NCBI GenBank assembly: GCA_024220525.1
Contig: JAMYWO010000308.1
Span: 18,814-43,559, forward strand
Direction of reading: 5' to 3'
Length of the DNA: 24,746 nt
Origin: Cochliopodium minus
Taxonomy: Eukaryota > Discosea > Himatismenida > Cochliopodiidae
Shown here: positions 1 through 24,746 of the stretch, piece after piece
Layout: each line of letters begins with the position of its first letter
Numbering within the stretch: the first letter of the stretch is position 1
The notes under the pieces: model-generated
What the model was told of the DNA's origin: nothing
Databases searched by the model: none
Seen by the model: only the letters and a program-made list of their open reading frames with translations
Translations under genes and position numbers: made by a program

Positions 1-69
1 AAAATAAAAATAAAAATAAAAATAAAAATAAAAATAAAAATAAAAATAAAAATAAAAATAAAAATAAAA
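1..69. repeat. (AAAATA)n run, left copy of an exact 69-bp terminal direct repeat
   Basis: Thymines fall every six bases from position 5 to 65. Positions 1-69 are identical to 24678-24746. The run lies inside the T-rich (on the coding strand) intron of gamma-COP that spans the two window ends. Because the unit is a simple hexamer, the identity could be chance overlap of one microsatellite rather than a designed terminal repeat. Confidence 0.95.
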
Positions 70-95
70 AATAAAAAGTAAGAAAAAATTGTTAC

Positions 96-785
96 GAAGA
101 AAAAGAAGCCAAGTCAAATTCAAAAGGGGAAGAGGTGGGCTTGGACAAATATTGCTGCAAAGAGGTGGACAACTTGTTCAATGAGGCGAAAGGAACAGGC
201 GCATGAACCTTTTTGGCGAAAGAGACGTCCTGGTTGATGGAATAAAAGGACAAAACTGATCTGTCTCTCACTTCGTTATCGTTATCATAAATACATCTCT
301 CTATAACAATATTAAAAAAAAAAACAAAAAAATTAAAATGATAAATTTTCAATGAAAATAAAAAAGATGAAAATTTTTTGAAGCTTTACATGAAAGTTAT
401 AAAATTTTGAAGACAGAAGAAATAAAATGAAACAAAATAAAGAATAAAAAAAAAATAAAAAAAAATAAAATAAAATAAAAAATAAAAAATAAAAAAATAA
501 AAAAATGAAAAAATAAAAAAATAAAAAAATAAAAAATAAAAAAAAATGTTATACCCAACAATAATTGGATGGAAGGTCTCAGGTCCTCTACATGCAAAGC
601 AAAGTTGGACAAAGCAGAAACAGCAGCAGCACGGACGGAACTGTTCTCCAAGATGACTCTGTTGTAGATGTAGCGGATATATTTGGAAGGGTTGGTGGTC
701 TTAGGGCCCTCTTCTCCCAAAAGATGGAGGATTTTGGTGGAAAGAAAAGAGTATTCACAGTCTTCAATGAACTCGCAAAGATGTC
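96..785 (-). CDS. Coatomer subunit gamma, middle exons (part of a gene that wraps round the window ends)
   Basis: Gamma-COP is a large subunit of the COPI vesicle coat (F-subcomplex), working in retrograde Golgi-to-ER transport. Two exons are seen on the minus strand. The first, 785-555, carries the highly conserved HEAT-repeat stretch with [29 protein letters not shown] and a VRAAAVSAL helix. The second, 300-96, carries [14 protein letters not shown] and the end of the solenoid. The intron 554-301 has donor GTATAA and acceptor TTATAG; phase 1 rebuilds LLLERC, as in animal gamma-COP. The exon at 785 opens with two bases finishing a codon, so earlier exons (about 430 residues in animal homologues) must lie upstream, but 786-1092 is only low-complexity DNA and then an N. 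Exon 2 ends in phase 2 at a GTAACA donor and joins the exon beginning at 24424. Similarity is strong enough that the family call is near certain. Confidence 0.93.
301..554 (-). other. Gamma-COP intron with A-homopolymer-rich low-complexity DNA
   Basis: On the plus strand it is mostly runs of five to eight A broken by T, that is T-rich on the coding strand. Open frames through it translate to Phe/Leu/Ile strings and are not coding. It is bounded by a GTATAA donor and a TTATAG acceptor. Confidence 0.85.
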
Positions 786-1092
786 CTATAAAAATAATGT
801 TTATTAATAAAAAAAAATATAATAAAATAATTATGATAAATAATAAGTAGTGACAACAATAATAATAATAAAAAAACAAATTGAATAATATAGAAAATGA
901 AACTTATAAAATAAAAATAAAATGTAAAAAATAAAATACATTTAAATTTTCAAATAAATATAAAATTAATATAAAATATAAAATATAGAATATAGAATAT
1001 AAAATATAAAATATGAAATATAAAATATAAAATATAAAATATAAAATATAAAATATAAAATATAAAATATAAAATATAAAATATAAAATATA
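786..1092. repeat. Low-complexity intronic DNA with a 7-bp (ATAAAAT)n tandem array up to the N
   Basis: From about 970 to 1092 the sequence is an imperfect array of the unit ATAAAAT, with a few A-to-G changes near 988-1015. The rest is A/T-rich sequence with an AATAAT run at 859-871. It should be the start of the gamma-COP intron lying 5' of the exon at 785, but no further gamma-COP exon is present. The array stops at the ambiguous base 1093, where unrelated plus-strand coding sequence begins. Confidence 0.85.
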
Positions 1093-1093
1093 N
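1093..1093. other. Ambiguous base N marking a probable assembly joint or breakpoint
   Basis: This is the only non-ACGT character in the window. A minus-strand gene (gamma-COP) loses its 5' half immediately to the left, and a plus-strand gene (PA-7TM) loses its 5' end immediately to the right. A tandem repeat abuts it on the left. That is the pattern expected of two sequence ends brought together. Confidence 0.8.
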
Positions 1094-1113
1094 TTGATTT
1101 TGATTGAATTCAG

Positions 1114-3962
1114 TTGTGGCTTGAGATGGGCAACCAATCAAGCAAATTTAACATGGAATGAAATTAAACCCGGATTTTCATATATGAGAAGACCAATCAC
1201 ACCCTTCGTAGCTCAAATTGTTCCACAAGGAACAAATCTGTTTAATTGCCAGCCAATAAAGGCGAATGTAAATAATTTCCAAAAACAAAAAAACTCAAAG
1301 GGATTATTATTTTTGAAAAAATAGAATATATTCAAATTTCACATTAACAGAATGACAATTTGAGGATTTATCGATTTGGAATATTATTCCCTATCACATA
1401 AATTTATATTTTTTATATATATTTATTTTATTTTATTTTATTTTATTTAATTTTATTTAATTTTTTTAATTCTTAATTTCCGACAATCAAATGATTCAAG
1501 TTGACAGGGAAAATAGCTTTGGTTGCATTTGGGAATTGCTCAATAGAAAGACATATACAATATGTGTTGAAAGCAGGTGCAAAAGGGATGCTTTTGATAA
1601 GTGATGGATGGAGAGTATGCAACTTAATAGATGAACACACATTCAACACTTCGATCCCGACCATATGTGTGAATGCAATTGCTCCTTCTTTCAGATCTTT
1701 TGTATCCAATTTTACAAAGGTATAAAAAAAATCATTTCTTTATTTTTGAAATCACTGATTATTGATGATTAGTATTAATTTCATTAATCACTATAATGGA
1801 ATATTGTTAAAGTCCTTTAACTATAAATTATTTTGAATATTATATTTTTTATTGATCTTTTTTTTATTATTTTTTTTATTTGAATTTGTTTATTTTATTT
1901 TATTATGAAAGAATGGACAACAACTGAAAGCAACACTGATAGATTTTACACCTGGAGAAAATCCTTACGACGAGTTGAACAGAGGAGGGATGCAATTTAG
2001 GAGGGCAATCATGCTTTTCCTTTGTCCATTACTCATGATTTACTCCCTCTACAAAATGTACTTGTTCTCCAAACAAAAAAACAATCTATTTGTCTTCATA
2101 AGTTTAATTAGTGTATTTTTATGTAAAACCTGCTTTATTTAATTTTATTTAATTTAATTTATTTTATTTTATTTAATTCTTTTTAACATAATTATTTTTT
2201 TATTATTATATTTTTTTATTTTTATTATCCTTAAATTTTTTTAAATTTAAATTTATTTTTTAATTTATTAAATAATTTTTTATTTTGTTACTTTTTATTT
2301 TTAAATTTTATTTTATTTAATAATTTTATATTTTGTTACTTTTTGTTATTAAATTTTTTTTATTTTATTTTTATTTTTTATTTTTTATTTTCTTAGAAAT
2401 TTATTCCTTTTTTATTTATTTTTTTCAGTTTTATTTTCCTAATTTTTAATTTTATTTTTTATTTTTTTTTTATCACAATTTTTGTTAAGTTTAAATAAAA
2501 AAATTAAACAGAGTTTTATTTATCATTTCAAAATTTAATTAAAATTTGATGAAATGCAACAATTTAAATATTATAAACTAAGATGGATTATGTTGGCCTT
2601 TGTTACTTTTTTTGAAAAATTTATTCCTTTTTAATTTTTTTTGTTTATTTTTTTAATATTATTTATTTTTTATAATTTTTTTAATCAAAAATTTTAGTTA
2701 AATTCATTAATAAAAAGTTTAAATCTTTAATTTTTTTTTATTTTATTGACTTTACATTACATTTTAATTTCATTGAAAATTTAGATGCAATTTTTTTGAT
2801 GATATACAATATTGACAACCAAGGGTATTTCAGAATGGTCACAAATTTTCAATTTCAAGTCATTTTCAACAACATGAAGTACATCATTTTTTCTCCCTCT
2901 CGTAAAAAATTTAACAAAAAAATAAAAATAAATAAAAAAATAAAAATAAAATAAAAAATTTTTGAATTAAAAATAAAAACAAAAAAAATTAAAACGAAAA
3001 ATTAAAAAATGATCTAATTTTATATTTTTAAAATTATTTTTAGAAACAGTGATTTCTATTGTCCATACAGGAGTGATTTTAAAGGTATTTGGGAACAACT
3101 CAAACAAAAAAGTAATTCCCATCACTGTTTTGATTTTGTTTATGTTGATGGTTGAAATCCCTCTTCTTGTTTCCGCTGTAAAAATTTTTTATTTTAAAAA
3201 TTTTAATTTTTAACTGTTTTTGTTTTATAATTTTATTTTTTTTATTTTTTATTTTTTTTTAACATTTTTTGTTTTATAATTTTATTTTCATTATTTTTTT
3301 ATTTTTATGAGTTTAGATAACTTTTTCGACTTATCGAAGAAATGATAATTTGTTCAGAGCTATCAGCATTTGTATCAGCATTTTTTATGGGTTCAACGTT
3401 TTATTTTATTGGCTTGGAAGTATTTTGTTGATTTATAAATTGCATTCAACCACTGGTAAAAAAAATAGAAAAATGGAAAAATAAAAAATAAAATTTTAGT
3501 AAAAGTAAAAATAAAAATAAAATAAAATGGAAATAAAAATATATAATACTCCACTATCTGTTAAAATTAAAGAAATAAAATAAAAAAAAATAAAAAATAA
3601 AAATTTTTTAAATAGATGGAATGAGCAATACTCAAAAAAGCAGGAAAATAAGAAAGTATTTAAAGTTTTCGATCTTAGTGATCATATATGGGATACTAAT
3701 CTTTTCAGCATTCATGTGCATCAATTTTTCAGTGAACCCAAACATTCTGAACGACATGTACAAATTCACAATTCTGTATTACATGATAGATTGTTTCCTT
3801 CTTTTGGCAGCTTTTGTGATGGTGTACATGTTTCAACCCAAACATTCTCCTTTTTCTCAAAGTTTGGCTGCCAACGCCAATTCTCCCAACTTTTCTTCAA
3901 AGCTCGGTTCTTCTCGCAAGTCTGATTTTATTGATGAAGAAAAAAGTGTCCCTCTCAACTAA
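1114..3962 (+). CDS. PA-domain seven-transmembrane protein, 5' end missing
   Basis: Seven exons join in phase: 1114-1267, 1501-1719, 1912-2122, 2785-2901, 3044-3177, 3317-3455 and 3616-3962, giving about 439 residues without the N terminus. Residues about 1-125 resemble a protease-associated (PA) ectodomain, with an N-glycosylation-type NLTW site, FNCQPI, then LTGKIALVAFGNCSIERHI and AGAKGMLLISD. It is followed by about seven hydrophobic segments: MLFLCPLLMIYSLY; a second spanning exons 3 and 4; TVISIVHTGVILKVF; VIPITVLILFMLMVEIPLL; one in exon 6; and two in exon 7. The tail is Ser-rich and cytoplasmic by inference (SSKLGSSRKSDF). This is the layout of a receptor-like or sorting protein of endomembranes or the cell surface; ligand and function are unknown. 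The first exon shown begins after an AG at 1113 and needs an upstream exon, which is lost at the N. No protease catalytic domain is visible. Confidence 0.72.
2123..2784 (+). other. Longest intron of the PA-7TM gene, T-rich
   Basis: This 662-base stretch runs from donor GTAAAACC to acceptor AATTTAG and is mainly T with A interruptions. No open frame with family similarity is visible in it. Splicing across it keeps phase 1 and rebuilds a hydrophobic helix (SVFLYAIFLMIYNI), which supports the model. Confidence 0.7.
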
Positions 3963-4396
3963 TTTGCTCCCCCTACCTCTCTCTTTCCTTCTCTTTCTAT
4001 TCCTATTTTATTTTTATTTTTCTCTTCAAATGACTTATTTTGAAAGATTATTTTTTATAGTGGTTGTGGTTTTGAGCACAGCCCAGTTTTACAAAAAAAA
4101 ACAACTACCAAAATGAGTCTTTTGTTTAAATTAAAGTTTAATTTAAAGTTTTATTTAAAGATCCTGTAATTTCTTTTTCCTATTTAATTCTATCTTAAAA
4201 ATGAATTCTAAAATCATCTTTCAACAGTCCAGAATTTATCAATTCAAATCAAATTTAACAAGTTGTTTCTGTTGAATCTGGATCAAAAGCTTTTATTTTT
4301 GTTGGTTTTTAAAACTGCTTTTGGTTTGCTATTTATGAGTTTGGAATTGGGAAAAATGATGTTTGAGAAATTGATGTGATTGGAACTTTGTGATAG
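3963..4396. other. Intergenic, pyrimidine-rich 3' flank of the PA-7TM gene
   Basis: Directly after the stop at 3962 there is a CT-rich tract (about 3966-4025), followed by ordinary A/T-rich sequence. Short open frames here have no recognisable content. No promoter or RNA gene can be supported. Confidence 0.6.
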
Positions 4397-4760
4397 GAAA
4401 GAAAACAAAATATTGCTGAAAAAAGATTCTATGATCAGCCAAGTTGGTTTGAATTATTCACCAAATCATCAGAAAACAATAGTTCTTTAGATTATCCCAA
4501 GAACTTCATTTATCTTCTTGAAAACCATACCTACAGCAAAGTTTTCATAATTTTGAAGTATATAGGAAAATAGAAAGAAGAATTAATTGAAAAGAAACAA
4601 TCGAAAAGATGGAATATCCTATCATCAATGATAAACCCAATTATTTGATGATGATTACTCCAAGAAAGCAAAAGAATGGACAAAACTTTCTTTTCTTAAA
4701 CATAAGCCTCCAAATGCATACCAAAAGCATGCTTTGTACTAGCGATGATCGAAAGCAATT
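4397..4760 (+). pseudogene. Frame-broken coding-like sequence of unknown origin
   Basis: An open stretch at 4397-4573 has protein-like composition (EKRFYDQPSWFELF, DYPKNFIYLLENHTYSKVF) but no ATG and ends in TAG. Further protein-like pieces follow in other frames (EEWTKL-like text read as KKAKEWTKLSFLKHKPPNAY near 4644-4715). None is joined by a convincing splice pair. I do not recognise the family. It may be the remains of another gene or upstream exons of the broken gene that follows. Confidence 0.35.
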
Positions 4761-4764
4761 TAAA

Positions 4765-6000
4765 ATGCATATTTATCACTTATTACTTATTCTGATATTA
4801 GGGTATCTAAAATCAAATCACAAATATTTAATATTTCTGATTGCTATATTAACAAATAATGCCAGTGTTTATTATAACTTGATTACGAACATTGATTGTG
4901 GCAATTACAGTGGCTTCACCCCAATTGAAAATGGCACTTTCAAATGTCGACAATGCTGGATTATTTGGAATTGGAATTAATGCAATAATAATAAATGTAG
5001 TTTTAAATAATAAATATAATAGCTCCAGGCCGCGCTAATGTTGGAGCACTTTTTGGATATTTTGTGGGTTGTAACATCAATAATATAACTTTATCAACGA
5101 CAGAGCAAAGTATATCTAATGTGATTAATGGGCATATTCCTGTTGGAGGTTTAATTGGAATAACAATGGGAGCAACAACAGTTAATAACCTTAGTAAACG
5201 CAACTGGGATTAATATATAGGAGGAGTGATAGGAAATAGTCAACCTTCTAGCGAAGTTTCTAATTGCTACAATTTGAGAGAAATTTCTAATTCAAGTGCT
5301 TTGATTGTATATGGATTACAAAGAGTAGGAGGTGAATAGGGATCTATGGACCAAATGACAATATTCAAATGAGGGAAAATTTTTTAGGTTAATGGAGAAG
5401 TAGGAGTAATGGGGTTTGCACTTCAGCCAGAGAGCAGCAGGTGTTCTTGGAACAACTGGACTTCAGGTCTATACAAAAAGGTAAATATTATTTTTCCTCA
5501 ATCTGTTTGGAAAGGAGATAAATTGATTTTTGAACAAACTCTCAATTATTCTTGCCAAAGTTGCCTAATTTCCTCTACACTTCCTCCTTCCACTCTCACT
5601 CCTACTCTTACTCCTTCTACTCTCATTCCCTCCACCCTCATTCCTTCGACTCTCATACCTTCGACTCACAGTCCTTCGAATCTAACACCTTCCACCCTCA
5701 TTCCTTCCACATCACCCCAAATTTGCATTTATCAAGTTCCTAACTGCTCACTTTGTGAAAGTTCAAATGGAGTAGTAATTGTTAATACAAACAACTTTGA
5801 TGTGTCATATGCGAATATTAGTGGAAAACACTCTTATGTTTTCTCCATCTCCAACTCCTCTTTTGTGATCAACTCAGCAATTAATATCTCTAATAATAAA
5901 GCTTTATTGGATACTTTAATCAAGGATTTGAAAGAAGCATCACCACTCAAATCTACCAAAACATGTCAGGAAAGTTGAATATTACAGGATGTGCAACATT
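4765..6000 (+). pseudogene. Decayed GLUG-repeat cell-surface protein gene with a Ser/Thr/Pro stalk
   Basis: The ATG at 4765 starts a hydrophobic leader (MHIYHLLLILILGYL), then YYNLITNIDCGNYSGFTPIE, the lead-in typical of proteins with GLUG motifs. The repeats themselves, NAGLFGIG, NVGALFGYFVGC, VGGLIGITMG and IGGVIGNS, follow but in different frames. There are at least two in-frame stops (TAA at 5211, TAG at 5337) and shifts near 4930, 5025, 5390 and 5480. From 5480 a long clean segment encodes IIFPQSVWKGDKLIFEQ and CQSC, then about ten copies of a (L)(I/T)PST stalk unit, then a Cys-containing domain. The frame is lost again near 5945, where NITGCATFNGV continues in another frame. GLUG proteins are usually secreted or surface-anchored beta-rich adhesins; here the gene looks inactivated. 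Unrecognised introns could explain some but not all breaks. Confidence 0.6.
5570..5713 (+). repeat. Coding tandem repeat of a Pro-Ser-Thr stalk
   Basis: A 15-base unit encodes PSTL plus a variable residue (I/T). It is repeated about nine times with synonymous and single-residue changes inside the broken surface-protein gene. Such stalks usually hold an extracellular domain away from the membrane and are O-glycosylated; that role is inferred. Confidence 0.7.
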
Positions 6001-6422
6001 CAATGGAGTAATAACATTGATTTATTTTAAAATATTAATTCATTTTAATTTTCTAATAAATTTAAGATCAACAGAAAAAATCTTCAAAGAGTGGAAACTT
6101 AAGCAAGTTTATTGAAAGCATGAAGACACTCTATTCTTCAGATTACAATGTAAATTAACCAATAGAATTTAGAGGTTTATCTTTTTAACTTTTTAGAGTC
6201 ACTAATAGAATTTAATAATTACAAAAGAGGAAGATCTCAACAGTTCATGAAGAATGTTTAAACCCTTCATAACAAAAAGATATCAATTAAGAACATTTCA
6301 AATTTACTTCCAAAATTAATTAATTTATTTCAAAAATTTTTGTGCAAATGTTTTAACATAGTGATGGAAAGGAATAACGTGTTCATAAAGAAAATTATAA
6401 TAAAAAAAAAATTGTAAAGAAT
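6001..6422. other. Intergenic region upstream of epsilon-COP
   Basis: The first part (to about 6160) still has protein-like reading (KSSKSGNLSKFIESMKTLYS), probably the tail of the decayed surface-protein gene. The remainder is A/T-rich with no recognised feature. It presumably holds the epsilon-COP promoter. Confidence 0.5.
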
Positions 6423-7659
6423 ATGACAGATCTCAACGAAATTAGAGACCTATATTACTTAGGAAACTATCAAAGAGTAATAAATGAAGCATCAAATATA
6501 GATTGCCCTGAAGTGGAGCAAAAGATCCAAAGAGACGTGTTTATTTATAAAAGTTATTTAGCACAAGGCAATTATAAAATTGTTTTGGAGGAGATCAATG
6601 ATAAACATCCTGCTGATTTGAAGGCTGTATTAATCTTTGCCAAATATCTTTCTGATGACAAAGATTTGAAGAATGATGCTTTGGAGACCTTGGAGAAATG
6701 GATGAAGGGTTCCAACGCAAACAATGAGAATTTCTTATTGATTGCATCTTTGATTTATATCAACGAGAATAATAATGATAATGCTTTCAAATGTGCTGTA
6801 AAGGTCCAATCTATAGAAGGGTAAAATTATATAATTTTATTTTCAATAATGCCCAAAATATTTTGAAATTAAGTATAAATAACTTCTTTCCTCATATATT
6901 GAAAAATTTTTTGTGAGAATTTAATCTGCGCCATATAATTTGGATCAATTTTTATATCTCAACATAAGATACTATATAATTGATCAATGAGATCCAAATA
7001 TCATTCTGCTTTCATCATTATGATATGTATATTTTAATATAAGGTTCTATAATATTTTCATCATTATAATCTGATTAATATTCTGCAGAAAAGCAATGAT
7101 GATACAAATGTATTTGAAGATAGACAGAATTAAAAATGCAGAGAAGGAATTGTCAGATCTCATCAAAAAATACGATGATGAGAATCCCCTCACCTTGTTG
7201 GCAACCGCCTGGGTAAAGCTCTACTACGGAACTGAAGAAAAGTCCAAAGAAGCGTTTTACATCTACCAAGGTAAAAAAAAATTTAAATTTTTTTCCAAGA
7301 AAACTAATTTTATTCATTTTTCTTTCTTTTTCATTCAAAAAAAACAAGAATTGGTCGAGAAATTTGGCCCAACATCACTCTTGCTCAATGGACTTTCTGT
7401 AGCCAACCTCCAAATCAACCAAACCGAGGATTCCATCCAAAACCTCAAAGAATCTCTCGAAAAGGACTCCAAATCTTCCGACGCACTCATCAACCTGGCT
7501 ACTTGCTACACTTTGCAGAACAAGTCTTCTCTCTCCAAGCGTCTTTACACCCAGGTCAAAACCTTCCAACCTAATCACATCTTTCTTACCAATTTGTCAA
7601 TTGCTGAGAACAATTTTGACAAGTTTGCTTCTAATTTTGCTCCTGAGGTCAAAAATTGA
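6423..7659 (+). CDS. Coatomer subunit epsilon
   Basis: Epsilon-COP is the TPR-solenoid subunit of the COPI coat (B-subcomplex, binding alpha-COP). Three exons, 6423-6820, 7089-7270 and 7349-7659, give 296 residues, close to the family's usual 290-310. Family signatures in order: IRDLYYLGNYQRVINEA near the N terminus, RDVFIYKSYLAQGNYK (residues about 38-53), FAKYLSDD, a KAMMIQMYLKIDR helix straight after intron 1, TLLATAWVKLYYG, PTSLLLNGLSVANLQ, SLEKDSKSSDALINLATCY and the ending AENNFDKFASNFAP. Intron 1 (GTAAAA...CTGCAG) is phase 2. Intron 2 (7271-7348, 78 bases) is phase 1, is a multiple of three and has no stop, so unspliced reading stays open, but the family similarity passes exactly across it (YIYQ to ELVEKFG). 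The ATG at 6423 places the first TPR helix where it is expected. Confidence 0.93.
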
Positions 7660-7982
7660 TCCATCTTTTTTTTTTTGAACAAATTAAAATTTTATACATA
7701 TTTATTTAAATTATACTTAATAATTCCCATATTGTTATTTTATCCTAATCTAAACTTTTATTCAGTTTGCATTGAAAAATATTAATCTGTTAAATTATGA
7801 ATTCAAAAAAAAAATTTCATTTGGTTGATAATTACATTTTCTAAACGCGAATAAGCTTATTAAATAAATTGGAAAATTATCAAAAAATACAGCTCTTTTT
7901 TATAATCGATTAGAAAAAAAAAAAAAAGATAATAAATTAAAAAAACAAAAAAAAACTAAATCAAAATCAACAAATAACAAAC
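7660..7982. other. Intergenic region between epsilon-COP and the GQQPI-repeat gene
   Basis: A/T-rich sequence with T runs just after the epsilon-COP stop and an A13 run near 7914-7928. It is likely to hold one 3' end and one promoter, but no specific signal can be claimed. Confidence 0.5.
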
Positions 7983-8892
7983 ATGAGCAATTTACAACAA
8001 AGTAAGTATTTTTTCAATTAAACTTACAAAGGTAAATTTCAATTTTTTAGCAAAAGCTGAAGGATTAAACAGGCAAAATGAACAATTACAACATCCCCAC
8101 CTCGAAGATAATGCAGTGGTTCTTGGAAAACAACCAATCATCGAAGGAAGACCTCTTGTAGTTGGACAACAACCAATTGTACAAAAAGAAAAAGTTGTAG
8201 TTGGACAACAACCAATCTTTGAAAAGAAAAATGTGGTAGTGGGACAACAACCAATCATTGAACAAAGACCTATTATTGTTGGACATCAACCTATCATGGA
8301 ACAAAGAAATGTCGTAGTTGGACAGCAACCAATTATTGGAGAAAAGGATGTCATTGTAGGACACAAACCAATAGTTGAAGATAGACCAGCGATTGTAGGT
8401 GAAAAAATACTTATTGAGCAAAGAACTCAACAACCAATATTTGACCAAAATCTCACTCAAACAAAGGAAGTACATCATCACCACGTAGAACAAACCAAAA
8501 AACCACTCGGAATTGGTCTTTTCACACAAGGAGCAAGAATCGCTCTTCTATCAAGCAAAGACAAGTATCTCACTTTCAACAAAGACAAGATTAAACATGC
8601 AAAAAATAGAGGAGAAAAAGAAGTTTGGTGTGTCGAAAGCTGTGGTCAAGATGGTCTTTTTGCACTCAGAAATGAATATGACGGAAGATATTTGAGCTGT
8701 GACCACAAATTGAGACTGAGCGATACAAGAGGAGAAACTGAAATTTGGAGAATCGAACAAGTTGATCATGAAGGTACCAGAAAATACTTGTTGACCAGCC
8801 ACAAAGGTGACTTTCTTTCTGAAGGACTTATGAACTTGAAATTAAGGGAAGATAGTTGCACCAAAACTTACTGGGAAGTTGAAGCTGTCTAA
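7983..8892 (+). CDS. GQQPI-repeat protein with C-terminal beta-trefoil (fascin-like) domain
   Basis: Two exons, 7983-8001 and 8051-8892, give 286 residues. The short first exon (MSNLQQ) is chosen because donor GTAAGT and acceptor TTTTTTAG join in phase 1 and because the coding sense extends upstream of the next ATG at 8116. Residues about 30-130 hold some eight copies of a 13-residue unit of the form VVGQQPI(I/F/V)E(Q/K)(R/K)xV, rich in Val, Gln and Pro. A VHHHHVEQ linker follows. Residues about 160-286 form a compact domain with beta-trefoil-type elements: ARIALLSSKDKYLTF, DGLFALRNEYDGRYLSC, ETEIWRIEQ, RKYLLTSHKGDFLSE and the ending TYWEVEAV. These resemble fascin/actin-crosslinking-like or lectin-like trefoils. 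A cytoskeletal or glycan-binding role is possible but unproven. No signal peptide is seen, so it is probably cytosolic. The repeat block is not a family I recognise. Confidence 0.78.
8110..8440 (+). repeat. 39-bp coding tandem repeat (VVGQQPI unit)
   Basis: The DNA unit includes GGACAACAACCAAT(C/T), recurring every 39 bases, for example near 8164, 8203, 8242, 8281, 8320 and 8359. Codons for the core GQQPI are nearly identical, while the second half of each unit varies. This indicates duplication within the gene with some homogenisation. Confidence 0.85.
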
Positions 8893-9117
8893 TGAAAATT
8901 CAAAAATTTTGAAAAATCAACAAATCAAATTAAACTATTTATCCTTTAAAATCAAAGACATAATCTTTAATTATGGCGTTTAAAAATGAAATTAGTGAAA
9001 TGAAAATATGAAATGAAAATGAAAAAAAAAAATCAATCACTGAAATTAAGCAACACTTTTGTTGATTTCATTGATTTAATTCATGAAATAAAATAAAAAA
9101 AACTTCCCAGCAAACAA

Positions 9118-12107
9118 ATGATAAATGATTTGTTTTTAAACTACTTTGGCAAAAATCTTTCTGTTATCTTACATGGAGGAGAGGATGAATCAGAAAAGGA
9201 AAAAAAACTAAACAAACTGATTGGAAAATCTGTTGAAAATTTTGATAATTCATTGTTTTATGCTTGCAAAAGTGAAAACCTCTTTCTCTTCAAATTTCTT
9301 TTCAAAAAAAAAAAAATTGAAGCATTCAAAAAAATTAATGGCACAAGAACTATTGATCTCATAATTTCTGGGAAGAATAAAGAAATCATAAAATCCTTTT
9401 TGGAGAAAGGAGAATATCCCAATCTTCTCCTCTTTTATCTCAATTTAACTTATTTTGATAGCCAAATTTTTGAATTTTTGATTGATTTTTGTGTTGATGT
9501 AAATCTTTCCTACGATGATACACTTAATGCACCTATACATTTAATAATCTCAAGAAATAAAGAGTTTAGTCTCATTAAAAAATTGATAGAGAAAAAATCA
9601 GATCCAAATTTGAAGAATAAAAAAGGAAAAACACCTCTGCACATGGAATGTTCAAAAAAACAACCAAATTTCGAAATAATCGATTTTTTGATTGAAAACA
9701 AAACAAATGTAAATCTCAAAACCACCAAAGGATTCACTCCCTACCTTCAATACTTGAAGAAAACAGAAAAAATAGAAGATAGAATCTTTTACCTCTTCAA
9801 TCAATACCCTTTTGATGAGAAATTTGAAGATGCAAAAGGCAACAACATTGCGCACTATCTCCTCTTAAAACAAGATATCTCCTATCTGGAAGAATTCCTC
9901 CTCAAAAAAGTGGATGTAAATCATTTGAACAAAGATGGGTTTTCTCCCTTCCACTTTGCACTCAAAAACCCAAAAGTATCTACCCAAATGATCAAAACAA
10001 TGATCGAGTTCTATCGAGCTAATGTGGATTTCATCCCTGGTTCCGAAATTTCCCCTTTGAAAATTACACTGGGAAATTACATTTGGAGTAACTATTGTTT
10101 ATTTCCTTCATTTCACTTTTAAACCCTTTCTTTTTAATTATCTTTAGATGGAAAAATGAGAAACCAAAATGAAAAAAACGAAATCTTAAAAATTCTGCTG
10201 GAAAAAGGAGCAGACGCAAATGAAGAAATGGATGACAAACACCCATTAATCTACTATTTCGATGGAGGGAGAGATAAAGATTATCTGCATCTTTTGCTGG
10301 ATAACAAGGCAGATATAAACTACATTAGTAAAGTGGATGGGAAGACTTTTTTACATCATTTATGTGATAACCAAGATTATTTTTCTTTTGAATTGTTTGA
10401 AGAATTGGTTTTCAGAGGAGGAGATATTTATGTTGAGGATGATTCCAAAAAACTTCCGCTTAGTTACATCTTTTCCAACAAAGATAACTTTATCTATTTG
10501 CTCAACATTCGATTGGATATAAATTGGTCTTTTCGAAATTCCGAGGGAGTTTCATTATTAGAAGAATTCTGTTCTTCGATTGAAGAAGAATTTTGTGGGG
10601 AAATTTTTTTTTTTCTCCATGATGACTTTTGTGAGGTGTTAAATGACCCTCTTCTTTGCAACAAACTCTTTTCTTTGTTCTGGAAAAAACCTTTTAAAAG
10701 CAAACCTCTTTTGGAGTATTTCCTGGACAGAGGAGCAACGCCCGAAACCATTCTCTCCAACAAAGAATATTTCCTTTTCAATTGTTTTACAGGGAGAATG
10801 AATTTGCACATGTTGTCTTTTGAGTTTCTGCTAAAGGAAGAAAAAAAGAAGAAGCGCGCCTCTTTCTTGAAAAAATGTTTGGAGTATTCTTGCATCGATG
10901 GCTCAAATAGCAAAAGCATTCTCCTTCTTCTTGATCTCCTTCACTTAAAAGACACTTCCAAGTACTTGTCTCTTTATTGCACCAATCCCAAAGTCGATCC
11001 CTCCATTCTCAAAATTCTCCTCCAAAAATCTGGGAAAAAAGAAATTGATTTCAGTTTACAAAACTGCCTCAAAAATCATTTAATTGAGACGATCCTTGAG
11101 TTTACTAGCTATATCGATGATTTGTTTCCCATTGCTCAATTTTTTGTCAAAAATAATTATTTAATTCAATTGGATGACTTGATAAGAACTAATCCCAGCA
11201 AAATATCTCTCGCCCAAAAAAAAAAACTTTTAAATTATTCTTTGTCCGATTTTGAAAACTTAAATGGTTTCCATAAAAATCCAATTTTTTACACCCTTTT
11301 GTACCACAACTCCGTAAATGTATATACTGACTATTTTTCTTTATTTGTTTAATTAACTTTTTTTATCATGTTAGGATACAAGATTATCTCTTCGCTCTTT
11401 TGAACGATTCTTTCCTGTAATTCATTATCTAAATTTTTCTTGCAATTAATTTTCTTTTTCTGAAAAATTCTTAGTTTCATGATAAAATCTCTATTTCTGA
11501 CCAGATTAAAATTCAAAGGGTATTGAATTTATGGAACGAAGGAAGTTTGTGGACAGCACCAATGCACTCTACTCTTCCAGTGGAATTCAAACAAAAAATT
11601 TTTAACTTTGTTCTATGCTTGAAACACTTTTTCAAAACCAAAAAAGCAATCATTTTTCCAATTTTCCCAAAACCTCTCTTGTTAAAATGTATTTCTCTGT
11701 CTTTTTCTTCAAAATACAAACCAGAGTTTTCCGATGAAATATTTATTACTTACCAAGAAATGAAACTACAAAGGTATGAGGAGCTTTGTGTTTACCCCAC
11801 AACTGTCCAAAATACCTTGGTTCCTAAAAAAACAAAGTATGTTCGTTATGGAAATAAGATTGAAAAGAAAATGATATACAACAAACCTTCTTCAAATTGC
11901 TTTGTAAATTTATCAAAAAAAGTTCTAGGATTATCTTCTTCTTTTAACTATGTTGAGTCACAAAGAGATCTTATTTGTATTAAAAGAGAGGAAGATCTCA
12001 ACACTTCCAAGAAGATGGTTCTTAGCAAACCTCCTCCAAACAAAATAAATAGAAAACAAAAGTTCCAAAAACTTCAATTCAACAAGTTAAAGTTCACTAA
12101 AAGATAA
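9118..12107 (+). CDS. Ankyrin-repeat protein with a C-terminal CID-like segment and basic tail
   Basis: Four exons fit in phase: 9118-10087, 10148-11313 (or 11319), 11375-11416 and 11475-12107, about 936 residues. The first 370 residues carry degenerate ankyrin repeats (KKGKTPLHMECSKK, LIENKTNVNLKTTKGFTPYL, VNHLNKDGFSPFHFALKN, LLEKGADANEEMDDKHPLIY). The middle is helical and more divergent. From about residue 680 the text NPIFYTLLYHNS, then RSFERFFP, then SDQIKIQRVLNLWNEGSLW resembles the last helices of a CID (RNA polymerase II CTD-interacting) domain, in which a KI-x-RLL-x-WE helix is typical. The last 150 residues are Lys/Arg-rich without a recognised domain. The ankyrin part is secure. 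The CID reading is an inference, and the small 42-base exon and its borders are the weakest part: an alternative frame there also reads protein-like. It converges with the DEP-PH gene, 45 bases apart. Confidence 0.68.
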
Positions 12108-12152
12108 AACAATTCAATTAAAGAAATATTTTAGAATAAGAAGTTTTAATTT

Positions 12153-15769: not shown

Positions 15770-15906
15770 TCTTTTTTATTATTAAAATAATTTTTATATT
15801 TATACAATTGTGTTCTTTATTAAATAAATTTGAAAGAATAAGTTATTCATTTTATATACAAACTTTATAAAACAAATTTTCTATCTTTATTCAGAAATTA
15901 AAAAAA

Positions 15907-18900
15907 ATGAAAAATAAAGAACCAAAATCTCCAAAAAATAACAAAGGTTCCAACAATTTAATTTAATTGATAATGAAGAGGATTTTTCAATAATAAATGT
16001 TTATTCAAATTCTATGAAAATTATAAAGGGAATATAAAGTTAAATGGGGATTCAAATTTGATAAAATCAGAGAATGTGAATGAATTGAAATTATATCTTG
16101 AACACAATGATTATAATGTCAATAAAAAAAACAGTCATGGATATTCCTTTACACATTATTTTCTATCATACAACAATAACTTGGAAATAATAAAGTATTT
16201 AACAAATGAGAAAGAATGTGACTTAAACACAAGGGACAATGACGGAAACACACCAATTCATTTTGCATGTTGGTAAACTTTTCATCTTTATACACAAAAT
16301 TCAAATAAATCTGAAACAGAATATAAAATTTTGAAAAATGATTTTTTTCTAAGAATTCATCTTAAAATTTTTCAAAATTTATTGTCAAGGTATAACTCAA
16401 ACTTGGAAATTATAAAATATTTGTTTGAACAAGTAAAATGTGATATAAATATCAAAAACAAGAATGGATATACACCATTTCACAAAGCATGCAGAGGAAC
16501 AAATTTGAAAATAATTAAATACATGATAGAGGAATTAAAATGTGACGTGAACATGAAAAAGAACAACAAAAATGGACACAGTCCATTCCATATGATATTT
16601 TATTCAAAGAAAAACACTTATGAAATTGTCAAATACTTTTTGGAAAATACACAAGCGGACATTAATTTGAAAGACGCCAAAGAAAATTCCCCGCTTCACA
16701 TGGCTTGTTTGAATTACAATAATGCGGACATCATCCACTATTTGATTGAAGAAAAAAAATGTGACGTGAATGCAAGAAACAAAGAAGGGAACACTCCTTT
16801 TCATACCATTTTCGCTGAAAACATCAAAGACAATTTCAATCTTGTCAAGTATTTTGTTGACGCCACTGTTTGTGATTTGAACATGCACAACAATGCAGGG
16901 AATACTCCTCTTCATTTAGCTTGTATATCTTATTTTATTTTTTAATTTTATTTTTATTTTTTATTTTTATTTTTTATTTATTTTTTTATTTTTTTGTTTT
17001 TTTATTTTTTTATTTTTTTATTTTTTCATTTTTTTTCATTTTTATTTTTCATTTTCATTTTATTTTTTTATTTTTTCTATTATGTTCTGCATTTAAATTT
17101 TATTTTTGAAGGTATGAATAATAGCCGGTTGGAGTTGATCAAGTATTTGGTAAAAGAGGGAAAGTGTAAAGTGAATTTAGTGAATAACTATGACGAAACC
17201 ATTTTGCATTTAGCCTCTCAGAACAACAATAACTGCAAAATCGTTAAGTATTTGTGCGAAAAAGCAAAATGCGATGTTAATTTGAAAAATAACAATGGAG
17301 ATACCCCTCTTCATTTGGCTTGCTGGTAATTTTTTTTTTTTTTCAATTCTTTTTTAAGGGTGCTCCTTTAAATTGAATAGAGCCACTCATTAAAATATAG
17401 ATATCGAAAAAATAAAAAATTTATTTTAATTTATTATTTTACTTATTTAATGTTTTAATTTGTTATTTTTTTTTTTTTACTATTTAATGTTTTAATTTGT
17501 TATTTTTTATTTCATTTGTTATTTTTTTTTTAATATATTTTTTTTTATTTTGTTAATTTTTATTAATAAATTTTTATTTTTTAGTTTTAAAAATTTTTCT
17601 AATCTCACATTATTATTTTAAAAATAGGAATAACAAAAACTTGGAAATAGTAGAGTATCTGATTGAGGAAACCGAAAGCGACGTCAACATGAAGAACTGC
17701 AAGGGTCTTTGTCCATTCGAGCTTGCTTGTTGGAACAACCAAAACATAGAGATCATAAAATACATGGTGGAAAATCTCAAGTGTTACGTCAAAATGGTAG
17801 GGAACATCGATTTGGATACCCCTCTTCATTTGGCTTGTAAATTATATTGAATTTATTTTTTAAATTTATCATCATTTTTTTTTTTTGAAATCATTTTTTT
17901 AAATTATTTTTTTAATTTTTTTTTTGTTATTTATTTTGTTTTGAAAGGCAGTCACAACTCTAGTGTTGATGTCATAAAGTATTTCTTTGTCGAGTTAAGC
18001 TGCGATTTGAACATCACCAACTTGAAGAACCAAACGCCGTTCCACGTGGCCTGCATCAAAAACCCCTCCTTGAATGTCGTCAAGTTTTTCGTCACGCATC
18101 TCAAATGTGATCTTTCTTCCAGTTTTAAAAGCGGCGATTCTCTTCTTCATTTGGCATGTATGCACAATTCCAATTTCGAAATTGTTAAATATCTGATCCT
18201 TCAAAAAATGGATATCAATGCCAGAAATAGCCAGGATGAAATCCCTCTCTTCTCTTTTTTGATCCATCCCAAATCATCTCATTTTCTTTATCCTCATTTG
18301 AAATATCTCCTCGAAATGAAAAGCCATCTCAATCAGATCAACAAGGATGGCGACACCCTTCTCCACAAAATCTTCCGCTCGCACATTCATGCTCATGATC
18401 CTGAAATCCTGAAATCGATTCTGATTTCCTTTTTATCGTATGGGTATGACCTCACTCTCGAAGATCGCCAAAAAAATTCTTTAAAAAATCTAATTTGTAA
18501 CAACATCAACAACCGTTCAAAAAATAAAAGCAAAATCACTAATAACAATAATAATAATAAGAAAAGCCACACGGATAACTCCTCTGAAAATAATTACAAG
18601 CTGCTTTATGAAATGATTGACAAACAAGAAATTTGGAAGCCCACCACTCACAAGTACTTTTCTTCTTATCATCATAATACTGTCAAACTATTTTTTTTGT
18701 GCATCAAACATTTCTCAAAGTTGTCTCTCACCAAATTAACTCGCAACGTTGTGTACAAAATTCTTTCCTATTCAATCAACTCTTCTCTTTTTCCTTCTCC
18801 TAAACCCTCCCTTGTTCAAAAAAGGTTGTTGGGAGAACAATCACTTTGTGAGAATGAACAGGACAAGAAGAAATTCAAACTAATTAATCAAACTAATGAA

Positions 18901-19113
18901 ATTGTTTCCCAAATCTACGAGCTCAAGTTGCAGATCAAAAAGAAAAAGCTCAAATATCTCGAGCTTGAAAGAGATCTGCTGGACAAAAACGAAATTTCTT
19001 TGGAAATGTCCCTTTTGGCTGAAGAAATCGATAAACTCAAGCTGGAGCTCGATACAATGAACCAAACTGTTTTCAATCAGTTAGATGGAAGTCTTGGAAT
19101 CGATTTCTATTAA
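15907..19113 (+). CDS. Ankyrin-repeat protein with WxPxTH motif and C-terminal coiled coil
   Basis: Six exons join in phase: 15907-15946, 16029-16272, 16390-16922, 17112-17325, 17628-17836 and 17948-19113, for 801 residues. About thirteen ankyrin repeats of roughly 35 residues carry the pattern NxxGxTPLHLAC...N(L)EIIKYLIEExxCDVNxK. All four internal introns fall at the same place, in or just after the LAC(W) motif, so exons equal whole repeats. After about residue 560 the repeats fade into a poly-Asn/Lys linker, then IWKPTTHKYF followed by helices ending LTRNVVYKILSY. This resembles the WxPxTH/F-box-like end seen in many protist ankyrin proteins, which could link it to ubiquitin ligases. The last 80 residues form a charged heptad-like coiled coil (QIYELKLQIKKKKLKYLELE). 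The first exon (MKNKEPKSPKNNK) rests on a weak GTTCCA donor and is uncertain; the rest is solid. Confidence 0.82.
16923..17111 (+). other. T-rich intron inside the ankyrin gene
   Basis: Nearly all bases are T with A and a few C. The donor is GTATAT in the LAC motif and the acceptor is GAAG. The phase-1 junction restores A-C-M at the repeat boundary. The neighbouring introns 17326-17627 and 17837-17947 are of the same T-rich type and contain no open coding sequence. Confidence 0.75.
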
Positions 19114-19186
19114 TCTTTGTTCCATTAAATTTTGTTTTATATTTAATTTTGTTTTATTGATTGAACTTTCAAAAATAAAAAAAAAA

Positions 19187-19624
19187 ATGAAAAATTCAAA
19201 AAAATTACTCCATTCCATACCTAAAACCACCATCAATACCAATGATATCAAATTCCCCAAATCAATTTCTTTCAATGATAAAAAGGGTTTCATCCTCATC
19301 ATCAAAGCCAAACCCAACTCCAAGAATAATTCTTTATTATCAATCGAAGATGAATATATTGAAGTTGCCATTGCTGAACAAGCTCAAGATAATAAGGTAT
19401 GAATGAAATATTATCAAATGAATACTCATTTTCATTTCATTTGGAAGGCAAATAATGAATTGATCGATTATATGAGCTCCATTTTGGATGTGAAGAAGAA
19501 AAGCATTTGTATTGAGAGTGGAAATAAGGGAAAGAATAAAACTTTGAGTATTTCTCCCTCTGATGCTAATGATTTGAGCCTCCAATCCATCTATGACAAA
19601 TTAAAAGATAATATGATCAATTGA
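19187..19624 (+). CDS. UPF0235/DUF167 (YggU-like) family protein
   Basis: Two exons, 19187-19396 and 19448-19624, give 128 residues, near the usual size of eukaryotic members. Phase-0 joining (AATAAG, donor GTATGA; acceptor TTGGAAG) rebuilds the family core: GFILIIKAKPNSKNNSLL, EYIEVAIAEQAQDNKANNEL, IDYMSSILDVKKKSICIESG and KNKTLSI. The KPNSK, the small-residue turn before ANNELI and the helix followed by SGxKxxxK are the diagnostic positions. The biochemical function of this widespread small alpha/beta family is not established. The ATG at 19187 is preferred because the longer upstream reading is hydrophobic low-complexity sequence. It lies 73 bases after the ankyrin gene on the same strand. 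Confidence 0.85.
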
Positions 19625-19801
19625 TTCAATCATTCATGATCCTGATATGAATATGTAATTGAAAATAAATATGTTACCAAAAGAATAAAGAGGAAAATTT
19701 TGTGAAATAAATGGATGAACCAAAATCTTACATTTGATCAATAGATAATAGCCAAATGATTTTATGTTAATTTATTATTTTCTAAAAATAAAATAAAAAA
19801 A

Positions 19802-22224
19802 ATGCAAACCAATTTTGAATATAAAGACACTAATTTTGAAGAATTTATTCTTTGTTCCATATGTTATGGTAAAATTAAAAATTTCCTTGCTATATAACTT
19901 TTATTTTATTGAACATTCCTCACAGAGCCATATATATATCCTATCACATTGGCTTTATGTGGACATACATTCTGCAAATTATGTTTGTTGCAGATGATAA
20001 AGAATGGAATGCATACTTGTCCTATCTGCAAGACAGAGTAAATAAAAAATAAAGAAGAAAAAATAAATTAATTTAGGCTAAATTAACAATCCTCCACAAT
20101 GAAAAAAAAAAGAATAGATCTCAAAATTTTGAATAATTCGAAATGCTCTATAGTGATAAAGAAAATATCAGATTCATTGAATATATATTGTTCATTGGAA
20201 AATCCAAATGGATCAAGAGATTGCGAATGGACAGTAAAATTGGATCAAAATAATTAATTAATATCTTGACTATCAATGATCATATGATCGTCTTATATTC
20301 TTAATTTAATATATCTTCAGTACATTTATGATACTCATTTTTTTAAAACTTTTATAAATAAAAAAAGGGACAAAGAGGGGATATAGAAGAGCACAGAAGC
20401 TCGAAGGATTGCAAGAACAAAGATAAAAAGAAGATATATACCATCAAAGTGGATGGGATAGAGGTCGATCTGAAAGAATATCTAGATAATCAAAGCATTG
20501 TAAAAGATAATCAAAATGAAAATGAAAATGAAAATGGAAATGACTATTATGAAGAGGATGATAATAATAATAATAATATTAATCACTTTCATCTACATCT
20601 TCGTGATCTTCATCAAAATTATCAACTGGGGATGAATATGCTCTGGGAGGATGGTTTTGAGGGAGATGAAGACGATATGAATCTGTTTTTGGGTAATAAA
20701 ATAAAATAAAATAAAATAAAATAAATAAATAAATAAATAAAATAAATGAAATAAATAAATAAATAAATAAAATAAATAAATAAATAAATGAAATAAATAA
20801 ATAATAATTAATAAATAAAAAAATGAAACTTAAATATATTGATACAAATATTTTTTCTTTCAGTCAACAACGTATACGAAAACGAAGAAGAGGAAGCGGA
20901 AGAAGAGGGAAATGAGGAAGGGGAAGAAGAGGGGGTACCAATGGACGAAGGAAGTATATACTTCTCTTTTCACAACAACAGCAACAACAATAGCAACAAT
21001 AACAACAACAGAAACATCAATAGCAATATCAATATCAATAACAACAATAGCAATAACAACAGAAACAACAATAGCAATAACAACAGAAACAACAATAGCA
21101 ATATCAATATCAATAACAACAATAGCAATAACAACAACAGCAACATTAATATTAATATCAATAGTAACAGTAATAATGGCAATAATTTCAATAATAACAG
21201 TAATAATGGTAGTAATATCAATTACAATAATAATTATAATTTCAATGGGAATGTTTATGAAAATGAGAATGAAAATGAAAATGAAAATGAAAATGAAAAT
21301 GAAAATGAAAATGAAAATGAAAATGAAAATGAAAATGAAAATGAAAACATAAATTATAATAATGATGTTAGTTTTAATTTTATTCACACTGATGATGTTG
21401 ACGTCGGTGATAATGATCACAATCATTTCAACAATTACGTGTCGGTGGAGAGGCAGATACAAGCGAACAACCAAATGGTCCAAAACACTCTCAACAACAT
21501 GAACCTCTTCATGCAGTCCATCTTCAACCCCTCTTCCAACCACAACAACCCTTCCAACATCATGAACGCCATGAACAACACCATGAACAGCGCCTTCCAC
21601 TCAATGAACAATACAATGAATAATACAATGAACAATATCACGAGAAATAATTTTAATAATAATAATAATATGGCGAATAATTCTAATAATTTTGGTAATA
21701 TGATGAATAATTCTTCTAACAATAATTTCAATACTAATATGATGAATTCAATGAGCAATTTTAACAACTTTTCTTCGAATTTTCAACATCCTTTTTTCCA
21801 GAATTCTTCTCATTTTTCCTACAATAATCATCGCAACAACAATAATAATTTTAATGCAAATATTGGTTATGTCAATCAAAATAATCAAAACAACAATAAT
21901 AACATGAATCAAAGCAACAACATCAATAACATCAATAACGAAAATCAGTTCATCAACCAAAACGACCAACAAAACGAAGAGAATTCTCACAACAACCATT
22001 TCATGTACCAAAACAATCTTCAACATAACCACAACCATTCTGAAGACCACAATGACCATTACCATAACCACAACCACAACCATGACAACAGCCATAACAG
22101 TTTTGTTCAATCCCAGTCTAATGGAAACTCTTTCTTCGTGCAAAGCCCAGGCCAGCAGTCCGTCATCACTCACAATGGCAGGACTGTTGTATTTCAAAAT
22201 GGGAAATATTTTTATTTATCTTAA
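19802..22224 (+). CDS. RING-finger, TRAF-type zinc-finger, Asn-rich protein (probable E3 ubiquitin ligase)
   Basis: Five exons, 19802-19868, 19926-20037, 20113-20233, 20368-20692 and 20864-22224, give 661 residues in phase. The RING is complete: C18-x2-C21, C34-x-H36-x2-C39-x2-C42 and C54-P-x-C57, a C3HC4 finger that would bind an E2 enzyme. A TRAF-type zinc finger follows (C86, C97, W99, H109, C115; CEWTGQRGDIEEH), completed only by the splice 20233/20368. Next come an acidic region with Asn runs, a Glu-rich block, an (Asn-Glu)n tract, and several hundred residues dominated by Asn with Ser, Met and His. The extreme C terminus is ordinary (ITHNGRTVVFQNGKYFYLS). The TAA met when the acceptor at 20079 is used is avoided by the acceptor at 20112, which keeps KTEIDLKILNN in frame. 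RING-TRAF proteins act in ubiquitin signalling; the substrate is unknown. Confidence 0.85.
20693..20863 (+). repeat. (TAAA)n/(AAATA)n microsatellite within an intron of the RING gene
   Basis: The intron starts GTAATAAAATA and ends TTTCTTTCAG. Between 20697 and 20825 it is almost wholly TAAA and TAAAA units with a few TGAA variants. The phase is 1 and the flanking exons join G-TC to give Val. Confidence 0.85.
20970..21250 (+). repeat. Coding Asn-rich trinucleotide tract (AAC/AAT/AGC)
   Basis: Long runs of AAC and AAT with AGC, ATC and AGA interruptions encode poly-Asn with Ser, Ile and Arg. Larger sub-repeats such as SNINININN and NNNRNNNSN recur two or three times, indicating local duplication. 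Confidence 0.9.
21256..21346 (+). repeat. Coding (GAAAAT)n hexanucleotide repeat, (Glu-Asn)n
   Basis: About 15 units of GAAAAT, pure apart from one GAG near the start, encode alternating Glu and Asn. Near purity at the DNA level points to recent slippage, so copy number probably varies between alleles. Confidence 0.92.
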
Positions 22225-22514
22225 ATTATTTCTGTTGATGTTCCTCTTTTTGTAAATTTCCCATTAAAATTTTACTTTTTGTAGCAAATTGCTTTTTATT
22301 AAAATCATGATAAGAATATTGTTTGAGGATAAGAGAATTACAATTAATTGACACAAATGGATACATTAGTCAAAACATCAACAATAGCTACTCTTCCTGT
22401 ATCATCATCTAATCAATAACTGATAATAAAATTTAATGAAAGCTTCAATTTTATCTAAAAATAAATTTTTAAATGTGAAGAATAAAATAAATTTTTTAAT
22501 TTTTGAGAGAATTT
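22225..22514. other. Convergent intergenic region between the RING gene and gamma-COP
   Basis: Two 3' ends face each other across 290 A/T-rich bases. T runs follow the RING gene stop, and AATAAA-like sequence near 22480-22490 could serve as a cleavage signal on the plus strand. No coding sequence is recognised. Confidence 0.5.
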
Positions 22515-24424
22515 TTATATAATAGAAATGATCATTTGAGAAATCTCCTCAGAGCTAGATCTACAAACAATTTCGACATTAGCTTGATTATCATCCAACT
22601 TCATTCTGGCTCTGACGACAATAGGGAACAAACCCAAAAAGGAGCCAGCCAAATAGAGGACATGTTTGTTCTTCTTAGGAGGAACTTTGTGACTTTGGTT
22701 GCAAGGCTGCAAAGAGAGGTAGTTGATGATTTCGGTACAAGCAGCGGACAAATCGCTGATGTTAGGCAAAGAAAAAACGATTCTTTTTTGGGCAGATTCC
22801 CCAAGTTGTTCCTAAGAAAAAATGAAAAAATAAGTAAGGAAAAAATAAGAAGTAGTCTTTTAAAAAAATAGAAAAAAAAAAATAATAAACAGAATGGAAA
22901 ATAAAATAAAAATAAAGATAAGAAAATAAAAATAAAAATAATTAAATAAAAATAATTATTAATAAAAAATGAAATAAAAAAATAAAATAAAATAAAATAA
23001 AAAAATAAATAATAAAATCAAAAAATAAATAAAATAAAATTTTAAAGATAATTTTTTTACCCAAACATCGTTCCAATCATTGTTGATTTCAGATTTACAA
23101 ATGTAGTTGGAAGCGCTCAACTCCAAATCGTCCAACTGGAACTCATCTTCATAACCTTGGTCATCCTCATCAGGTTCGCCAGTGTCGCCGTCGACCTCCT
23201 TCATGACGAACTTGAGGGTGGAGGTGAAGGAGCCGGTGGGGAAGGAGCTCTCTTCCTTCTCGAAGCAAACGAAGCAGTGGCTGGTGGATCCGTATCTCAG
23301 TTTCTTTGCTTGTACGGTTGACACTAATGTGAGGGAATCTTTTTTTTTTTTTTTGAAGGGAAATTTTTTTAAAATAATTTTTAAAAACAAATAAAAAATT
23401 TTAAAAATAAACTAATAATAATAATAAAAAATTTAGAAAATAAAATATAAAAAAAAAATAAACAATAATGTTCTTAATAAAAAATGAATATTAAAAATTT
23501 TATTTTTTTGAATTAAAAAAAAAGTTGAGAAAATAATAAAATTAAAAAAATACTAATTTGATAAAAATGATAAATATAAAATAAAAAATAAAAAGGAGAA
23601 TGAAAAATTGTAATAAAATTGTAATAAAATTAAAAAATAAAGAATGAAAAATAAAAAAAAATTAAAAAAAAAAAAATAAGGAATGAAAATAAAATTTACC
23701 AGAAATTTGATCATCAGCCTCCAAACGTACGGAAACATTTTCCAATTGCTGTTCTTCGATGGTGTTTTTACAAATGAAGTGAAAGAGAATGTAGCCAGAG
23801 TAAAAGTGTTTAATACAAGAGACTACATATTCTGATTCTGACTCTGTGAGAGCTTGGGGGGTGGAGGAGGACAAAATTTTTCCTGTAAAAAAAAAAGTTC
23901 AAATTTAATCCCATCAATTTTAAAAAAAGATTGAGAAAAAATAAAATAAAAAATAATAATTAAAAAAAATAGGTAAAAAATTAAATTAATAAAAAAATAT
24001 AATAAAAAATAAAAAAATAAAAAAATAAAAAAATAGAATAATAAAAAAATATAATTAACAATAAAATAAAAAATAAAAATGTAATTAAAATAAAAAAGAA
24101 TAAAAAAATAAAAAATAAAAAAAAAATAAAAAATAAAAAATAATAAAAAATAAAAAATAACAAAAATAATAAAAAATAAATAAACAAAAAATGAATTGAA
24201 AATAAATTAATCTCAAAAATTTACCTAATTTTTTAAATTCAGGAATCGAGTTGATTAACTCCACGTAGTCTTTACGAATGTTTTTGTTGTCTCCTTCTCC
24301 AGACTTGGATTGGGAAGAGGAGGAAGAGCCGGAAGAGGAGGTGTTGCCGGTAGATGTGAAGTTTTGGGAAGTGGTGGATTGGGAAGAGGATTGAACGAAA
24401 AGGTTGTAGTCAAAAGCATTCTCT
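22515..24424 (-). CDS. Coatomer subunit gamma, C-terminal exons (continuation of 96-785)
   Basis: Four exons, 24424-24225, 23882-23700, 23323-23061 and 22811-22515, join in phases 1, 1 and 0. They cover the linker (Ser/Thr/Gln-rich, then VELINSIPEFKKLGKILSSS), the appendage beta-sandwich (ALTESESEYVVSCIKHF, NTIEEQQLENVSVRLE, STLKFVMKEVDGDTGEPDED, GYEDEFQLDDLELSASNYI) and the platform subdomain (LQPCNQSHKVPPKKNKHVLY, LAGSFLGLFPIVVRARMKL, CRSSSEEISQMIISII, stop). The appendage recruits ARF-GAP and other COPI cofactors. The first exon begins in the phase (one base completing a codon) that exactly fits the exon ending at 96, and the two protein ends abut in family alignment. Together the two parts supply about 459 residues of an expected 870-900. 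There is no start codon here, as expected for internal exons. Confidence 0.94.
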
Positions 24425-24677
24425 CTATTTCGAAATGAAAAAATCAAAAACCAAAAAAAAAAAAAGTTTATTACATTTTTAATGCAAAAAAACCGAATAA
24501 TTAAAAATGATAAAATAAAATAACAAAAAAATGAAATATTATTTTCAAAAAAAAAAAGTTAATATAATCAAAAATAAATAAATAAAAAAATAGTTAAATA
24601 AAAATAAAAAATAAATAAAAAAATAGTTAAATAAAAATAAAAATAAAAAATAAAAAGTAAAAGTAAAAGTAAAAGTA

Positions 24678-24746
24678 AAAATAAAAATAAAAATAAAAAT
24701 AAAAATAAAAATAAAAATAAAAATAAAAATAAAAATAAAAATAAAA
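24678..24746. repeat. (AAAATA)n run, right copy of the exact 69-bp terminal direct repeat
   Basis: It is identical to positions 1-69, with thymines every six bases from 24682 to 24742. It is preceded by (AAAAGT)3 at about 24657-24676, which is absent next to the left copy. Being in direct and not inverted orientation, it does not look like a telomere. Confidence 0.95.

Follow-up and report, generated by a model that had tools for sequence, protein, structure and literature searches.

The stretch of DNA analysed here (the window, 24,746 nucleotides of a Cochliopodium minus genome assembly) is, with a probability of about 0.94, the right portion of a scaffold in which three consecutive contigs of an ordinary linear chromosome have been written in reverse order. 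The circle that the window seems to form is an assembly error, and the gene of gamma-COP is split by it over both window ends. From the course of this gene and from the overlaps of the contig ends we infer that the physical order is C-B-A: on the chromosome, the three contigs would follow one another in this order and in the same orientation, and the scaffold would write them as A, 7,213 N, B, a single n and C.

Composition of the scaffold and the window

The genome assembly comprises 44.65 Mb in 598 scaffolds, and the scaffold under consideration (C305) has a length of 43,559 bp. The window corresponds to C305:18814-43559. Its right edge is the end of the scaffold, and its left edge is the border of the run of 7,213 N (C305:11601-18813) inside the larger scaffold, to the left of which a further 11,600 bp of sequence are situated. 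Apart from this run, the scaffold contains only one N, at C305:19906 (position 1093 of the window), and consists, therefore, of three contigs. Contig A (C305:1-11600) occupies the left end of the scaffold, beyond the N run from the window. Contig B, of 1,092 bp (window 1-1092, C305:18814-19905), starts in a hexamer tract that is pure over 70 nt and ends in a heptamer tract that is pure over 77 nt. Contig C, of 23,653 bp (window 1094-24746, C305:19907-43559), comes after the single n at 1093, which is the scaffold join of B and C and which, if the contigs are indeed mis-ordered, does not stand within contiguous DNA. Instead of an assembly gap, the run of 7,213 N might in principle stand for withheld bases.

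Genes of the ordinary nuclear kind were found in contig C. Ten open frames that were scanned included members of the ribosomal S9/S16 and L13e families, epsilon-COP and ankyrin proteins, the gene content of an ordinary nuclear chromosome. At the very beginning of C (window 1094-1321, plus strand), an open frame extends to the contig end without a start codon and was taken as the 5'-truncated start of the gene of a secreted protein, which presumably has a PA domain further along. The search of the genome for a left neighbour of C gave no overlapping partner, but just a 75%-identical paralogous stretch in another scaffold (C141), where the paralog has an ATG and a few more upstream codons (3 to 5, as estimated by eye) than the start of C.

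The gamma-COP gene across three contigs

The evidence that counts is the colinearity of gamma-COP rather than the identity of the terminal repeats. One minus-strand gene, followed from 5' to 3', would pass from A to B and then to C, and for a gene of the minus strand running in this way the chromosome order C-B-A is needed. With the blocks in reversed order, the left end of the scaffold carries the 5' part of the gene, the left end of the window its middle part and the right end of the window its 3' part.

The exons upstream of window position 785 are situated in contig A (C305:110-2130), where six minus-strand exons match the family Adaptin_N at positions 2-57, 56-112, 110-221, 230-310, 306-363 and 365-413, three of these six being, when taken singly, under the whole-protein cut-off of the family. 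In contig B, the minus-strand exon at window 555-785 corresponds to Adaptin_N 414-492 and to positions 436-513 of gamma-1 COP (PDB 5a1u_E, 874 aa, which we take to be the mouse protein), and the next minus-strand exon (window 96-300, donor GT at 95-94), having no Pfam match of its own, corresponds to gamma-1 COP 511-576 with an E-value of 4e-4. In contig C, the minus strand contains a serine-rich linker exon (window 24225-24424, lower boundary set by eye), which by itself matched neither Pfam nor PDB entries, followed by the first half of the appendage platform (window 23700-23882, boundaries set by eye), which matches COP-gamma_platf 16-74 and gamma-1 COP 631-685. The second half of the platform (COP-gamma_platf 76-152, window 22962-23411) and the last domain (Coatomer_g_Cpla 17-115 of 115, window 22518-22811) come next on the same strand, and the coordinates of these two are those of open frames, not of exact exons.

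Of the six A exons, three were run against PDB, and of the four C stretches, two: the linker and the first half of the platform. The A exons gave positions 11-83, 135-246 and 384-439 of gamma-1 COP; by contig, the positions matched are 11-439 in A, 436-576 in B and 631-685 in C. The domains Adaptin_N, COP-gamma_platf and Coatomer_g_Cpla were thus found in the order that characterises gamma-COP. The gene shares with gamma-1 COP the succession of the Adaptin_N part, the appendage platform and the C-terminal platform within one gene, and differs from it in AT-rich microsatellite introns and in the serine-rich linker. Nothing functionally unusual was seen in this gamma-COP.

Both splices that cross contig ends are in phase. 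At the junction of A and B, the exon ending at C305:110 is joined to the exon at 785, and the product reads KEEGLGHLCEF. At the junction of B and C, a previous reading made from the sequence only had placed the last base of a minus-strand exon at 96, and direct inspection confirmed it: the exon ends there with TCTTTTTCTTC, is followed by the donor GTAACA and has two codon bases left. The minus-strand exon at 24424 comes after AAATAG and gives the missing A, as was also claimed in that reading, and the join reads FSSENAFDYN in phase. The exons at 96 and 24424 are, as had been proposed, consecutive exons of one gamma-COP gene, and therefore the right end of the window leads into its left end.

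The gene appears to be single-copy and ordinary. In the genome, COP-gamma_platf was found solely in C305, in two pieces, and there was no second gamma-COP platform. A second match to Coatomer_g_Cpla (C5:411842), considered as a possible further gamma-COP, was rejected, as its score is 161 bits for beta-COP and 31 bits for gamma-COP. An exon frame of A (116 aa) searched against the genome matched itself only. The frame of the B exon, taken together with the intron on both sides (168 aa), gave 12 other weak matches with E-values from 3e-6 to 6e-3, none of which ended before residue 147, a position well within the intron portion. These matches were rejected as extra copies, since they vanish when the exon is searched without the intron; the B exon alone (75 aa) matched only itself in the genome. 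No second copy of the platform domain, of the A exon or of the B exon was thus found in these searches; collapsed copies would be visible only through read depth.

Contig ends, microsatellites and the apparent circle

The ends of the contigs were compared for exact overlaps of 12 to 399 nt in the six ordered pairs of different contigs in like orientation, as well as in the reverse-complement pairs. Two of the six pairs overlap: the right end of C and the left end of B share 69 bp, and the right end of B and the left end of A share 71 bp. No exact overlap within this range was found in the other tested like-orientation pairs or in any reverse-complement pair. The contigs would stop where introns of the gene carry long microsatellites, impassable to a short-read de Bruijn assembler, and it is because the assembler could not cross these tracts that the facing ends would share 69 and 71 bp. 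The edges of the gamma-COP blocks fall on contig ends at N, at n or at the ends of the scaffold, and the facing ends overlap while the genes are colinear in an order other than that written, which is the picture to be expected of a mis-ordered scaffold.

The tract (AAAATA)n at the left end of B (window 1-69) is identical to that at the right end of C, which is also the end of C305 (window 24678-24746); this identity of 69 bp, noticed earlier, turned out to be exact. At the other end of B, a pure tract of (TATAAAA)n occupies exactly 77 nt (window 1016-1092), and its last 71 nt are the first 71 nt of contig A (C305:1-71). The pure heptamer tract measures exactly 77 nt at the left end of A too, whereas the hexamer ends are pure over 71 nt in C and 70 nt in B, not over 77 nt. 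A third length of 77 concerns the right end of A: its overlap with the beginning of a 1,518-bp contig in another scaffold (C4:170122-171639) is exactly 77 bp long. The latter contig comes after a single n and is the only other strong match to the right end of A in the genome. It is probably the right neighbour of A, and it may itself be misplaced. Direct adjacency of the right end of A to the left end of B or of C was rejected, as there is no exact overlap in either case.

This recurrence of exactly 77 nt in three places is suggestive of a de Bruijn assembly of short reads (k=77) that was broken at microsatellites. A repeat tract that exceeds k in length collapses in such assemblies to a loop, which leaves a single k-mer of the repeat at the end of each flanking contig. 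Such a value of k would account for one of the two breaks, that between B and A; the break between C and B, with its hexamer ends of 71 and 70 nt, is not explained in this way.

The perfect 60-nt word (AAAATA)10 has 425 placements in the 44.65-Mb genome (211 forward and 214 reverse, overlapping placements being counted separately), and for this reason the 69-bp repeat identity alone is weak evidence. The terminal repeat was consequently rejected as a proof, by itself, of a circle. The 63-nt heptamer word is rarer, with 25 placements at 12 loci, two of which are the left end of A and the right end of B.

It is extremely improbable that the window represents a genuine circle of 24,677 bp, or a unit of this length repeated in tandem, even if its ends are direct repeats identical over 69 bp and the splice across them is in phase. 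Circular contigs produced by de Bruijn assemblers have terminal direct repeats, and their ends have an exact short overlap. The window resembles them in the exact short overlap of its two ends, but here the overlap joins two distinct contigs, is situated in a microsatellite, and a second contig join interrupts the circle. The sequence between the repeats is broken by the n at 1093, where a circle needs continuity, and for this reason the view of the window as a circularly permuted molecule of 24,677 bp fails. Moreover, the genes are not continuous at every point of such a circle: the part of gamma-COP upstream of 785 was found in A and not past 1093, the right end of B overlaps A, and the frame at 1094 has no start codon. 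The ribosomal protein families S9/S16 and L13e and epsilon-COP, nuclear housekeeping genes, also argue against it. It may be concluded that the circle is excluded because B continues into A, not into C, and C begins in a frame lacking its start. Among the alternatives offered by the sequence-only reading, an assembly cut inside a microsatellite was half right, and the circle and the permuted molecule were wrong.

Other arrangements and a possible cause of the reversal

A larger ring, or a tandem unit of about 44 kb, might be formed by the whole scaffold, both the order C-B-A and the scaffolder's 7.2-kb link of A to B and C being real and the right end of A leading back to the left end of C; it would carry gamma-COP, epsilon-COP and two ribosomal protein genes. 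A scaffolder respecting orientation should put A before C only if read pairs link the right end of A with the left end of C, and such a link together with C-B-A would close the ring; the left end of C is, in addition, without an overlapping partner elsewhere. Nevertheless, we consider this arrangement very unlikely, as the right end of A has its exact 77-bp overlap with the contig in C4, its only other strong match (although that contig could be misplaced), lacks an exact overlap to the left end of C or of B, and the parts of gamma-COP that were searched have no second copy. The probability is practically negligible that the gene is truly scrambled in the genome as A-B-C and mended by DNA rearrangement or trans-splicing. 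The written order of the scaffold agrees with such scrambling, but the blocks have their edges where contigs end, at N, n or the scaffold ends, they have one orientation, with microsatellite overlaps at exactly the facing ends, and an assembly error suffices, so no new process is needed.

If three contigs of a linear chromosome were reversed, the scaffolder would have mis-read the links between them. As a possible but rather doubtful cause, short-insert (innie) pairs spanning C/B and B/A may have been mistaken for outward-facing mate pairs with an insert of about 20 kb. The insert size would then be about 19.9 kb, giving the gap of 7,213 as 19,905 - 11,600 - 1,092, and the gap between B and C would be negative and written as a single n. 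Some scaffolders do denote a negative gap by a single n. One fitted parameter, the insert size, would thus account in C305 for the contig order, the length of the gap and the single n. Two papers speak for this cause: PMC9326850 describes how mate-pair libraries are contaminated by short pairs, and PMC9635638 how mate pairs lead to hidden scaffolding errors. Two observations speak against it. If one join in the scaffold C65 had been reversed as well, a contig start would be expected near 62.8 kb, and no N was found in C65:60500-65500. In C4, the length of one gap, 23,361 N or more, is at odds with an insert of 20 kb. Pieces of 10 kb each from the scaffolds C522 and C508 contain no N and, hence, have no bearing on the cause of the reversal. 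At the five single-n joins in L004-L008, any exact overlap of the two sides was limited to 9 nt at most, and a literature search on contig-end overlaps found no paper.

In this assembly, a single-n join or an N run is no guarantee of order. Near either of them, a gene can look truncated, absent or rearranged, as gamma-COP does here, and yet be intact in the organism; no circularity, gene loss or break of synteny should be called where one of them intervenes. Mate-pair scaffolding errors in short-read assemblies, as described in PMC9635638, are similar to the present case in that contigs are misjoined and universal single-copy genes are disturbed; the difference is that the three contigs considered here appear to belong together, with just their order reversed.

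Contig ends and single-n joins

In C4, another scaffold of the same assembly, a short contig carries a gene with collagen-like (G-X-X) repeats (C4:170122-171639; positions 123-1640 of locus L022). Since its first 77 bp are identical to the right end of contig A (positions 1-11600 of C305, the scaffold that holds the window at its right end), it may adjoin contig A and perhaps belongs there, not in C4. A run of no fewer than 23,361 N comes after this short contig, and stretches related to it, with 62-69% identity, are carried by other scaffolds.

Contigs in C4 and in a further scaffold, C56, both stop at the same base of a common 121-bp sequence (89% identical), at C4:170120 and C56:91747 (L028:1501), respectively, and a single n adjoins each of these ends. 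The coinciding ends possibly represent a repeat boundary. Single-n joins, with one n between two contigs of a scaffold, are frequent near microsatellites and were present in 5 of the 7 loci L002-L008, a non-random sample consisting of matches to an AT-rich query. In L005 and L007, a microsatellite occupies one flank of the join and unlike sequence the other.

Genes and repeat-bearing frames in the window

An epsilon-COP gene, recognized as Coatomer_E in two open frames, is located at window positions 6378-7656. It lies on contig C (window 1094-24746), as does the 3' part of gamma-COP, approximately 15 kb away, so that two coatomer subunits are linked, perhaps by chance.

A 39-bp tandem repeat within an open frame (window 8123-8387) encodes 13-residue units around GQQPI; a Pfam scan of this frame gave no match. 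Large ankyrin-repeat open frames are located at 9097-11349 and 17851-19110, and within an open frame of 465 residues, positions 20972-21347 carry long repeats, Asn-rich as well as Glu-Asn (ATGAAA)15.
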